Shown: piece after piece, positions 25,292 to 27,943 of the stretch
Numbering within the stretch: position 1 is the first letter of the stretch
How the letters are laid out: every line of letters starts with the position of its first letter
Assembly: GCA_022841465.1 (NCBI GenBank)
Contig: JALHRL010000001.1
Span: forward strand, 124,001-188,000
DNA: 64,000 bases
Reading direction: 5' to 3'
From: Bacteroidia bacterium
GTDB taxonomy: Bacteria > Bacteroidota > Bacteroidia > B-17B0 > Aurantibacillaceae
Made by a program: the position numbers and the translations under genes
Notes under the pieces: model-generated
Told to the model about the DNA's origin: nothing
Seen by the model: only the letters and a program-made list of their open reading frames with translations
The model's database searches: none

Positions 25292-25328
25292 AAAATAAAA
25301 AATCCCTTCAGTATTGCCGGAAGGGATT
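25292..25328 (-). terminator. Leader terminator of metH (riboswitch expression platform)
   Basis: AATCCCTTC (25301-25309) and GAAGGGATT (25320-25328) form a perfect 9-bp stem with a 10-nt loop. On the minus strand it is followed by a T-rich run that ends at the metH ATG (25291). As a terminator located in the leader, it is the obvious partner for the SAM-I aptamer just upstream. Confidence 0.85.
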
Positions 25329-25413
25329 AGGTTATCGTTTAAATTAAATATTTCTAATTATTTCCGACTTATCTTTTCCGAATTACTTCGAAACGAATTC
25401 CCACCTTCTAATT

Positions 25414-25427
25414 TAGTTAAGAAAGTT
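25414..25427. repeat. 14-bp direct repeat in riboswitch P3, copy 1
   Basis: TAGTTAAGAAAGTT, repeated exactly at 25439-25452 (25-bp period). It is part of the enlarged P3 arm of the SAM-I riboswitch. Confidence 0.75.
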
Positions 25428-25438
25428 TTAAAGTTATG

Positions 25439-25452
25439 TAGTTAAGAAAGTT
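25439..25452. repeat. 14-bp direct repeat in riboswitch P3, copy 2
   Basis: Second copy of TAGTTAAGAAAGTT. AGAAAGTTA (25445-25453) also pairs with TAACTTTCT (25467-25475), making a 9-bp hairpin inside the P3 arm. Confidence 0.75.
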
Positions 25453-25614
25453 ATATAAATGTAATTTAACTTTCTAACTGATGAACTTGTAAACTGATTA
25501 ACTGTATCAGGGTTGGTAAGGCTTCAAAGGGCGTATCCCTCAGCCTTTCTTGATAAGTTTGTTAAAGAACTGCTGTAAAGGTAAGTAATTCTTTAAATAT
25601 TAAAAAATTCCTTA

Positions 25615-25627: not shown

Positions 25628-27943
25628 GTGATTAAGTACCGCCTTATAATTGCCCTTTTTTCGTGTGTTTTAAGCTTTGTTTATGGCCAAGATAAAGCCT
25701 TGTATAGTATTTATTTGGGCGATACCGTTAATGTAATAGATAAAAACGGCTTAAATCAAGACCGTTGGGTTTATTTAGGAAAAGACAAGAAGGGAAAAAA
25801 GTATAAGTTTTATAAAAGCAGCCAAATTGTAGAAGATGGAAACTTTAAGGATGGAAAAAAAATTGGTTTATGGAAAACGTACCACAGCAGTGGAAAAATA
25901 GAAAGTGAAATTAGGTATGAAAATGATGAGCCAAATGGGAAGGCTAGATTTTACAATAAAGACGGAAAGTTAATTGCTGAAGGAAAATTAGTTGGAAAAG
26001 AGTTTGAAGGAGATTATTATATATTCGATGTTGATGGAAATAAATTTAAAAAGAATGCAAGCAGAAAAAACAACTACGCATATTTAGCATTTAGCGGTAA
26101 GGTAGAAAAGTTTGGTAAAGAATTAAACGATGTACACATTAAAGTTGAAAGAGATGATTTTGAAATTTACGATGCTATAAATAATGCGGATGGAACTTTT
26201 ACTTTAAAATTGGAATTAAATTTCGAATACATTATACATTTTATAAAGGACGGATATAATGATCATTCATTAATAATTAACACCAATGTGTATAACATTT
26301 ACGACACCACCATTTATAAATTAGATAAATGGAAAATTCAAATGTCGGATAACATTGCAAACACCATTAGCAGTGAGTTTTTAAGTTTACTATTAAACAA
26401 ACCGGCCGGAAAAATTTATTTTAATAAACGTAGAAAAAAGTTTACTTCTGATGGTGCTTACGTGAATTTGTTTAATAAACAAGTAAAAGGAATTAGTGAA
26501 TCTACCAAATTAATTTTAGCGCAAGCAGCAGACGACAACAAAAAATTAGAAATAGAAAACCTGCGAATAGAAGCTGAGAAAAAAATGCAGGAAATTAATT
26601 TATTAAAGCAAGCGCAAGAATTAAAAGAAGCAGAAATTAAAAAGAAAGAGGCAGAAATACTAGCTCAACAATTAGAAAAGGACAAGAAAGATCAGGAGTT
26701 AGCAATGGCAGAACAAAACAAAAAAATAAACGATTTAAAATTTGAGCAACAACAAATTGAGTTAGAAAAGAAAAGACTGGAAGCAGAAAGGAACTCCAAA
26801 GAGTTTGAGCGATTGGCTGTATTAAGAAAAATTCAGGAATACGAATTAAAGGAGAAACAAGATGCTTTAAATAAATCTACACAAGAGCTGGCTATTTCAG
26901 GTGCAGAAATAAAGAAGCGGGAAATGGAATTAGGGTTAGCAAACAGAGAAAAGGAATTGCATGAAAAGGAAATGAAACAACAAATGTTTTATGTTTATAT
27001 TTTGGTGGGAGGATTATTATTAATTGCATTATTTGCCTTTTTTATATTCAGAAGTTTTCAGCAGAAGAAAAGAGATCATCAGTTGCTTGAAATGCAATCA
27101 AAAGAAATTGAAAAACAAAAATATGATTTAGAGGAGAAGTCGAAATTAATTGAGCAAAAAAACGTAGAAACAGAACAAAGTATTCAATACGCCAAACGAA
27201 TTCAACATGCTATTTTGCCTCCTGAACAAGAAATTAATCAGTATTTAAAAGATTATTTTATCTTATATAAATCTAAAGATATTGTAAGTGGAGATTTTTA
27301 CTTTTTTTACGACAGACATGCCAAAGAGTGTGGTAAAGTTTTTATAGCATCAGTAGATTGCACAGGCCACGGTGTGCCGGGGGCCTTTATGAGTATGATT
27401 GGCTACGAGAAGTTAAAAGACGCCGTAGATATTACCGATGAACCCGGAAAAATATTATCGGAATTAAACAAAGGCGTAAAGGCTGCATTACGTCAATCTG
27501 CCGAAGCAACTTCTACCCGCGATGGAATGGATTTAAGTTTGTGTGCTATCCCAATTAACCAAAGCGGAAATAAAGTAAAAATAGAATACGCAGGAGCAAA
27601 CAGACCCTTGTGGATTGTAAGAAAAGATGCCAAAGATTTAGAGGAAATAAAAGCCACAAAAATTGCAATTGGAGGTTTAACAAAAGATTCGCAAGAATTT
27701 GAACAGCATAATTTGGAGTTTGATAAAGGAGACACGATTTACATGTTTACAGATGGATATGCCGATCAGTTTGGAGGACCAAAAAAGAAAAAATTAATGA
27801 CCGGGAAGTTCAGAGAAATATTAATGAGTATACAACACCTTTCTATTTTAGATCAGAAAAAACATTTAAATGATTTTATTGAAGAGTGGATGAAGGATGC
27901 TGAGCAGGTAGATGATATGCTGGTAATTGGAATTAAATTATAA
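25628..27943 (+). CDS. Membrane-anchored SpoIIE/PP2C-type phosphatase with periplasmic repeat sensor region
   Basis: A 771-aa signalling protein. Signal sequence (YRLIIALFSCVLSFVYG); YwqK/MORN-type repeats at about 60-130 (KIGLWKTYHSSGKIESEI, NGKARFYNKDGKLIAEG); a carboxypeptidase-regulatory-like beta domain at about 150-250; a long Lys/Glu/Gln coiled coil (290-455); one membrane helix (YVYILVGGLLLIALFAFFIF); a second short coiled coil; then a SpoIIE/PP2C domain with QHAILPP, SGDFYFFY, DCTGHGVPGAFMS, DGMDLSLC and FTDGYADQFGG. It would dephosphorylate a serine/threonine phosphoprotein such as an anti-anti-sigma factor, controlled by an envelope signal. The partner proteins are not in this window. 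The start is a GTG. Confidence 0.9.
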   Translation: MIKYRLIIALFSCVLSFVYGQDKALYSIYLGDTVNVIDKNGLNQDRWVYLGKDKKGKKYKFYKSSQIVEDGNFKDGKKIGLWKTYHSSGKIESEIRYENDEPNGKARFYNKDGKLIAEGKLVGKEFEGDYYIFDVDGNKFKKNASRKNNYAYLAFSGKVEKFGKELNDVHIKVERDDFEIYDAINNADGTFTLKLELNFEYIIHFIKDGYNDHSLIINTNVYNIYDTTIYKLDKWKIQMSDNIANTISSEFLSLLLNKPAGKIYFNKRRKKFTSDGAYVNLFNKQVKGISESTKLILAQAADDNKKLEIENLRIEAEKKMQEINLLKQAQELKEAEIKKKEAEILAQQLEKDKKDQELAMAEQNKKINDLKFEQQQIELEKKRLEAERNSKEFERLAVLRKIQEYELKEKQDALNKSTQELAISGAEIKKREMELGLANREKELHEKEMKQQMFYVYILVGGLLLIALFAFFIFRSFQQKKRDHQLLEMQSKEIEKQKYDLEEKSKLIEQKNVETEQSIQYAKRIQHAILPPEQEINQYLKDYFILYKSKDIVSGDFYFFYDRHAKECGKVFIASVDCTGHGVPGAFMSMIGYEKLKDAVDITDEPGKILSELNKGVKAALRQSAEATSTRDGMDLSLCAIPINQSGNKVKIEYAGANRPLWIVRKDAKDLEEIKATKIAIGGLTKDSQEFEQHNLEFDKGDTIYMFTDGYADQFGGPKKKKLMTGKFREILMSIQHLSILDQKKHLNDFIEEWMKDAEQVDDMLVIGIKL

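Follow-up and report, generated by a model that had tools for sequence, protein, structure and literature searches.

A SAM-I riboswitch predicted upstream of metH in a Bacteroidia bacterium has a long P3 arm resembling dispersed genomic hairpins

The window (the whole 64-kb stretch of DNA analysed) carries metH on its minus strand. The 1238-aa open reading frame (ORF) has all five Pfam domains of B12-dependent methionine synthase and starts with the ATG at 25291-25289. Upstream of this methionine/SAM gene lies a predicted SAM-I riboswitch followed by a terminator; the features of the leader are listed in Table 1. The divergent neighbour on the plus strand (25628-27943) encodes a 771-aa protein with a SpoIIE-type phosphatase domain (PF07228).

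Table 1. Features of metH and its leader in the window
Feature	Position	Strand	Basis
metH, B12-dependent methionine synthase, 1238 aa	21575..25291	-	Pfam PF02574, PF00809, PF02607, PF02310, PF02965
T-rich tract, ends beside the ATG	25292..25302	-	sequence
Terminator 3' arm GAAGGGATT	25301..25309	-	93.9% of cells paired over 42 leaders
Antiterminator AT1 3' strand UUCCGGC, overlaps terminator 5' arm	25316..25322	-	covariation, nascent fold
Terminator 5' arm AATCCCTTC	25320..25328	-	93.9% of cells paired over 42 leaders
Antiterminator AT2 3' strand CUAAU	25326..25330	-	covariation, nascent fold
Antiterminator AT2 5' strand AUUAG	25354..25358	-	covariation, nascent fold
Antiterminator AT1 5' strand GUCGGAA, overlaps last P1 base and extension U25367	25362..25368	-	covariation, nascent fold
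SAM-I riboswitch aptamer (RF00162)	25366..25559	-	cmscan, 58 bits, E 6.5e-13
P1 3' strand GATAAG	25368..25373	-	sequence, cmscan alignment, fold
P4 hairpin	25376..25392	-	cmscan, fold
J3/4 CGT, proposed pseudoknot partner of ACG 25532-25534	25393..25395	-	by eye only
P3 insert, 105-nt imperfect hairpin like the dispersed-hairpin class	25406..25510	-	fold z -5.37, comparisons
P2-loop ACG, proposed pseudoknot partner of CGT 25393-25395	25532..25534	-	by eye only
P1 5' strand CTTATC	25552..25557	-	sequence, cmscan alignment, fold
Possible promoter -7 box TACCTTTA, one mismatch to TAnnTTTG	25576..25583	-	inferred

The match to the SAM-I family model RF00162 covers model positions 1-108 and scores 58 bits with permissive filters, above the gathering score of 44.4. 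Together with the 105-nt insert in P3 and the 9-bp terminator stem, it supports in silico the original prediction that metH has a SAM-I riboswitch whose P3 is enlarged and which is followed by a terminator at the start codon. With default filters, RF00162 gave no match in the 64-kb window, and in the search of the own genome the metH leader yielded only a 97-nt match of 37.6 bits, below the cut-off. Thus, the long P3 insert can hide the riboswitch from routine scans. Among relatives, RF00162 scored 62.8-91.7 bits at all 20 short-P3 loci and 45.8-61.6 bits at 18 of 20 long-P3 loci, missing L008 and L021. Hence the long arm accompanies a lower score, which explains how routine covariance scans can overlook such riboswitches. 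Weak matches to PyrR, ncr1575 and the PyrG leader on the minus strand were rejected as identities, being below the cut-off and resting mainly on the terminator region.

Both the cmscan alignment and the fold place P1-P4 around the conserved core, and the fold extends P1 by an A25558-U25367 pair. The block GGTGGGAATTC lies at 25405-25395 (minus strand). The pseudoknot proposed between the P2 loop and J3/4 has a CACG/CGTG version in relatives such as L043, L049 and L057 (seen by eye and uncounted); in the fold, 25393 is paired within P4 too, although the pseudoknot would need this base. The whole metH leader folds at -70.6 kcal/mol (z -5.63), and since none of 200 shuffled sequences folded as low, this structure is not due to chance. 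Aptamer conservation argues for retention of the predicted ligand binding. Its predicted anatomy is that of an ordinary SAM-I attenuator: the P1-P4 core, the metH context, and the terminator with an antiterminator are common to this riboswitch and the S-box leaders of RF00162, from which it differs in the 105-nt P3 insert and in a terminator that abuts the ATG.

The candidate promoter box upstream of P1 resembles TAnnTTTG, which we take to be the Bacteroidota-type promoter -7 motif. In 80 of 114 leaders (a count that includes near-duplicate genomes), the 45 nt before P1 contain TAnnTTTG, at a distance of 5-36 nt and mostly 16-20 nt. SAM-I riboswitches in Bacteroidetes are already in print, as passages of PMC2258182 report.

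The terminator is conserved among relatives. We aligned 42 of the 46 distinct long-P3 platforms, leaving out L018, L056, L066, and L110; in these 42 metH leaders, 93.9% of the cells of the 9-bp stem are paired, compared to 38-63% when the arms are slid. That the terminator touches the ATG proved to be both real and a common trait, as the distance from the T tract to the ATG is at most 10 nt in 14 and at most 20 nt in 24 of the 34 long-P3 leaders without an intervening gene (L018 entered this count with 28 nt, while its printed sequence gives 9). In 12 further long-P3 leaders, a gene lies between the riboswitch and metH. By eye, the gene found at this place in L008, L012, L020, and L024 is similar to SAM-dependent methyltransferases.

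The original prediction saw no antiterminator. This was wrong: a competing helix, AT1 with AT2, appears in the nascent fold and has comparative support in the same 42 leaders, as 82.8% of its cells hold standard pairs, a share that falls to 15.5-48.7% when the strands are slid by 1-3 columns. In GUAGA-type rows, MAFFT places AT1 one base off, and this reduces the pairing count. The number of antiterminator cells changed on both sides is 36, compared to a shuffled mean of 16.0, and none of 500 shuffles was as high. Two weaker measures gave 8 pairs with both sides changed (versus 5.9; 36 of 500 shuffles reach 8) and 17 pair types (versus 14.3; 28 of 500 reach 17), so that two of the five covariation measures are not extreme. 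One tested AT2 pair (columns 24/54) is broken in 22 of the 42 leaders. The conserved GUCGGA and AUUAG blocks that follow P1 in relatives can pair with UCCGRC and CUAAU, AT1 variants being GUCGGA/UCCGAC, GUCAGA/UCUGAC, and GCCGGA/UCCGGU.

The reading that we consider probable is a SAM-I attenuator that controls metH transcription and carries at the tip of P3 a hairpin of a dispersed and fast-changing kind. At low SAM, GUCGGAA and AUUAG just past P1 would pair with UUCCGGC and CUAAU; as the latter make up or overlap the terminator's first arm, this pairing would block the terminator, and metH would be transcribed, its start codon lying in open sequence. In the presence of SAM, P1 would be fully closed and hold the first two antiterminator bases, and the terminator would form a few bases before the ATG, stopping transcription. 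Any read-through RNA would keep the hairpin inside the ribosome footprint, where it may occlude the ribosome. The P3 arm, with its tip a ~100-nt hairpin of the dispersed class, presumably stays outside the switching and would be tolerated because it merely lengthens a helix.

In silico, the leader has the terminator and the mutually exclusive antiterminator of a transcription attenuator, with window energies of -12.6 and -10.8 kcal/mol, respectively. The transcript lacking the terminator 3' arm folds as the aptamer plus the antiterminator with P1 shortened, and in this nascent fold five P1 pairs coexist with the antiterminator. As, in addition, AT1 and P1 overlap by two bases only (25368 and 25367), exclusion of the antiterminator by SAM is narrow, and this overlap is the weak point of the mutual-exclusion model. 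In textbook SAM-I riboswitches, by contrast, the antiterminator takes most of the P1 3' strand. A purely translational mechanism, with the hairpin before the ATG blocking ribosomes instead of ending transcription, seems improbable to us: the stem is located within the ribosome footprint, and translational control is said in passages of PMC2258182 to be the commonest outside Firmicutes, but the stem is conserved together with its T tract, and the competing helix is conserved with changes on both sides.

The P3 insert lies between CAACC and GGTG. The two predicted 14-bp direct repeats were confirmed as an exact 14-mer within two 20-nt copies that are 90% identical (25411-25430 and 25436-25455), and the insert has inverted repeats as well.

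To describe P3 across relatives, we sampled 100 of them, of which 95 had a metH match; upstream DNA came from 90, and the leaders of 5 of the 95 were not included. The best 80 named contigs of a longer list were added, yielding 170 leaders in all, with some genomes present twice. A regular expression located the aptamer in 114 of the 170 leaders; of the 56 dropped, some have a visible aptamer core (such as L074, L147, L149, L155, L171, and L172), and others are truncated or gene-interrupted. Counted as distinct sequences, the 94 metH P3s fall into two equal sets, 47 measuring 11-51 nt and 47 measuring 67-117 nt (with 37 in the range of 80-93 nt), a split that describes the caught leaders only, since the expression dropped some with an aptamer core. 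The two forms differ as if a stem-loop replaced the helix tip of a functional RNA.

Long P3s predominate in this genus, and among relatives they were gained or lost recurrently. It is found in 30 of the 35 same-genus metH leaders with an aptamer; these come from 40 genomes, in 38 of which the leader was read, the regular expression not finding the aptamer in G014, G022, and G036, while G038 had no metH match and the leader of G013 was not included. When mapped on a tree built from 69 distinct MetH N-termini, 42 of them with a long P3, the P3 class requires eight changes, at least five of them forced by supported branches (mean for shuffled labels, 21.6). This means that the long P3 was gained or lost repeatedly. 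Most long P3s (35 of 47) fold with z < -2, and the one of L125 folds no better than shuffles. They are quite different AT-rich hairpins, whose texts vary by species (GTTAGAAAGTT, TTAAATG, GTTTCTTG, AAGTCAGA, AATTAAG, and others).

Similar hairpins are dispersed outside metH. The P3 of L015 had 46 matches in 18 of 40 genus genomes, 7 of them metH P3s and 39 elsewhere, while its reversed sequence, which keeps composition, repeats and palindrome, had a single match over the 40 genomes together; AT-rich text inflates BLAST scores, and this whole-genome control was run for the L015 query alone. The P3 of L008, for which no reversed control was run, had 20 matches including itself in 8 of the 40 genomes. 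Some of the matches are not hairpins; of 39 distinct dispersed loci, 15 hold one scoring 26 or more. The loci include intergenic gaps, such as L272 beside ORFs that by eye resemble rplU and rpmA, so that the class, like dispersed palindromic repeats, has copies at several unrelated intergenic sites. Dispersed copies occur in all 9 genomes whose P3 has the TTAAATG text and in 7 of the 26 others; these counts are lower bounds uncorrected for relatedness, and the TTAAATG class was defined by a score of 31 or more, a cut set after viewing the list.

For the window P3 itself, we found one modest match in the own genome and one free hairpin in a sister genome. The former (C4:131705-131746, E 0.0012) also matches on the other strand (E 0.03), as P3 is palindromic; the next own-genome match, C1:34951, has E 0.004. 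The latter, L288, lies between two convergent ORFs in the sister genome G008 and scores 60 against nt 8-89 of the window P3 (reversed, 19), while the metH P3 of G008 scores 43 (reversed, 22). The medians for the whole set of dispersed loci compared are 25 with real and 21 with reversed sequences, which limits strong likeness to the same-text minority. In 464 kb of the own genome, a fold scan and an inverted-repeat scan revealed no second hairpin of the P3 kind among the matches listed. The inverted-repeat scan produced 61 intergenic rows; among the 60 listed, two places being listed twice, only P3 combines a hairpin with strong tandem repeats (tandem-repeat score 30, at most 21 for the others).

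Long P3s also have a compositional bias, with more G than C in the 5' arm and more C than G in the 3' arm: it holds in 43 of 47, with G/C counts of 365/105 in the 5' and 70/382 in the 3' halves. The bias is seen in 13 of the 15 dispersed hairpins (61/15) and in only 8 of 47 short P3s, and control palindromes of the own genome are unbiased (51 versus 55; 253/257). The window P3 is one of the four long P3s that fail, having 6 G and 6 C in the 5' half and 0 G and 8 C in the 3' half after trimming. The G-arm/C-arm bias is a trait found here and not a published defining feature of palindromic repeats. It holds even though the opposite arm composition would pair equally well.

Part of the long arms of TPP riboswitches resemble the same kind of hairpin. 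TPP riboswitches are present in 29 of 31 genus genomes, scoring above the cut-off in 8 only. Their variable arm could be measured in 25 of 30 loci, and is 10-26 nt in 12 of them and 52-92 nt in 13 (82-92 nt in ten). The G/C bias of the long TPP arms is weaker (10 of 13; 91/50 and 53/82). Against SAM P3s, six of these 13 arms score clearly higher than against reversed P3s (83/47, 78/37, 73/42, 73/37, 47/23, and 46/33), and seven do not. Within a genome, the TPP arm and the metH P3 score 72 in G019 (reversed, 19) and 49 in G012 (28); as the median for the 12 same-genome pairs is 22.5, compared to 18 for other pairs, the likeness is carried by these two genomes. The TPP arm of the own genome (L339, C1:244213) is short, 19 nt. 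Two other RNAs were considered as hosts and rejected. RNase P RNA, found in 30 of 31 genus genomes with spans of 353-400 nt, had none of its 30 loci clearly above the reversed control (largest score 37, reversed 36), and among 30 cobalamin riboswitch loci the best scored 39 (reversed, 29; L379) and the rest 32 or less, with no clear match.

The original prediction held that P3 had grown by local duplication. The tandem quasi-repeats are indeed there, but the arm resembles dispersed hairpins and the long P3 is the usual form in the genus, and we consider it rather unlikely that P3 grew in place by slippage or local duplication while likeness elsewhere reflects convergence of unconstrained AT-rich Bacteroidota stem-loops. 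Such growth would fit the direct repeats inside P3, the P3 text common to close genomes (L010/L015, L007/L013), the end-to-end alignment of the window P3 with that of L008, and the seven long TPP arms without a clear match to SAM P3s. Against it stand the 46 matches of the L015 P3 versus one for its reverse, and a window P3 closer to a free hairpin (60) than to its ortholog (43). Also against it are the dispersed copies in 9 of 9 TTAAATG genomes versus 7 of 26 others, given the post hoc cut and kinship, and the RNase P and cobalamin RNAs of the genus, whose 60 loci lack a clear hairpin of this sort. We favor a P3 hairpin of the dispersed class, which would have been gained by insertion or copying.

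Apart from itself, the window P3 matches the own genome best at a place adjoining a PF05635 gene ('23S rRNA IVP'; L233, C4:131343-131657), while the next match has no S23 gene next to it. Of the 41 genomes searched, 36 have PF05635 genes. According to passages of PMC4990558, intervening sequences (IVSs) of rRNA with an S23p ORF are stem-loops that take the place of helix tips in 23S rRNA and are cut by RNase III. The P3 hairpin is likewise a long stem-loop in place of a helix loop in a functional RNA, and at some dispersed places in these genomes an S23 gene lies between the arms. However, P3 lies in the metH leader and not in 23S rRNA: its host is a riboswitch, and it contains no ORF.

The hairpins could accordingly be miniature ORF-less IVS elements, whose full form has a PF05635 (S23/four-helix-bundle) gene between the arms and an S23 protein aiding movement or processing, but we regard this as unlikely. 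Flanks were more complementary than 95% of swapped pairs at 14 of the 29 usable S23 loci (of 32), three of them exceeding every swapped pair, compared to 6 of 89 control ORFs; moreover, 13 of the 14 passing 5' arms have more G than C (132/28), like the long P3s, and rRNA IVSs also replace loops of 23S helices (PMC4990558). Against this, 15 of the 29 loci lack clear arms, and the own-genome locus L233, next to the best match of the window P3, fails with a flank score of 18, outside the 14 passing (since its 3' arm partly overlaps the called ORF, it could not score and was counted as a miss). Around the 32 S23 loci, a loose aptamer pattern gave scattered chance-like matches only and no convincing SAM-I half, and no S23 gene was seen inside P3. 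In addition, G004, G005, and G020 have a long P3 and no PF05635 match (G005 is 73% complete). The link between the P3 hairpins and S23 genes is suggestive only.

A broader reading, which we offer tentatively and would put below even chances, is that ~80-nt dispersed G-arm/C-arm hairpins of Bacteroidota are a so far undescribed class that lands on the tips of SAM-I P3 and TPP variable arms. Their replacement or rewriting would be so rapid that orthologous arms no longer resemble each other in sequence and yet stay one long hairpin, and they would be the ORF-less form of S23-carrying IVS-like elements; RNase III may cut the arm, leaving a two-piece riboswitch. The failure of the own-genome S23 locus in the flank test slightly lowered our estimate of both this landing-site reading and the IVS reading.

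In the CC-licensed PMC literature, we found no paper on dispersed repeats inside riboswitch arms among the top matches listed. As far as the matches listed from that literature show, the resemblance of the metH P3 and part of the long TPP arms to dispersed hairpins is new. STRR repeats, reportedly genomic short tandem repeats within rnpB of cyanobacterial RNase P RNA, are similar in being short genomic repeats inside a structural RNA; those are tandem in rnpB, whereas here a hairpin sits in a riboswitch arm. Long stem-loop inserts in riboswitches are already known, and the variable insertions described in passages of PMC2258182 are likewise long non-conserved stem-loops at a tolerated site. 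Here, in contrast, the stem-loop resembles genome-dispersed hairpins and part of the TPP arms, on which those passages are silent. Compared to REP/REPIN and other small palindromic repeats, short dispersed palindromes as well in the parts of PMC3116915 and PMC3733652 that describe them, the present hairpins are longer (~70-90 nt), AT-rich, and vary in text among related species (the comparison does not extend to tags). Riboswitch 'variable arms', usually taken as noise, can here be read as a record of dispersed hairpins, the same class being seen in SAM-I arms and part of the TPP arms, and this offers a concrete source from which arms may grow. The system also provides a test bed for the spread of IVS-like hairpins and possible RNase III cutting of a working aptamer.

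Some minor observations concern the surroundings of these loci. The own genome has a second SAM-I riboswitch (L001, C11:21411-21546; 63 bits), whose P3 is short by eye and which precedes an ORF resembling, also by eye, homoserine O-acetyltransferase. A dispersed hairpin of the TTAAATG kind (L261, G036:C45:290817-290883) lies in a tRNA-Ala/tRNA-Ile spacer. PF05635 genes (L217-L248) are located among tightly packed genes, the neighbours of L233 look like sufB and sufC by eye, and the passing S23 flanks are imperfect inverted repeats of short quasi-repeats. Among the TPP loci L339, L342, L344, L350, L353, and L354, five precede ORFs resembling outer-membrane receptors, and L344 precedes a thiC-like ORF (by eye).
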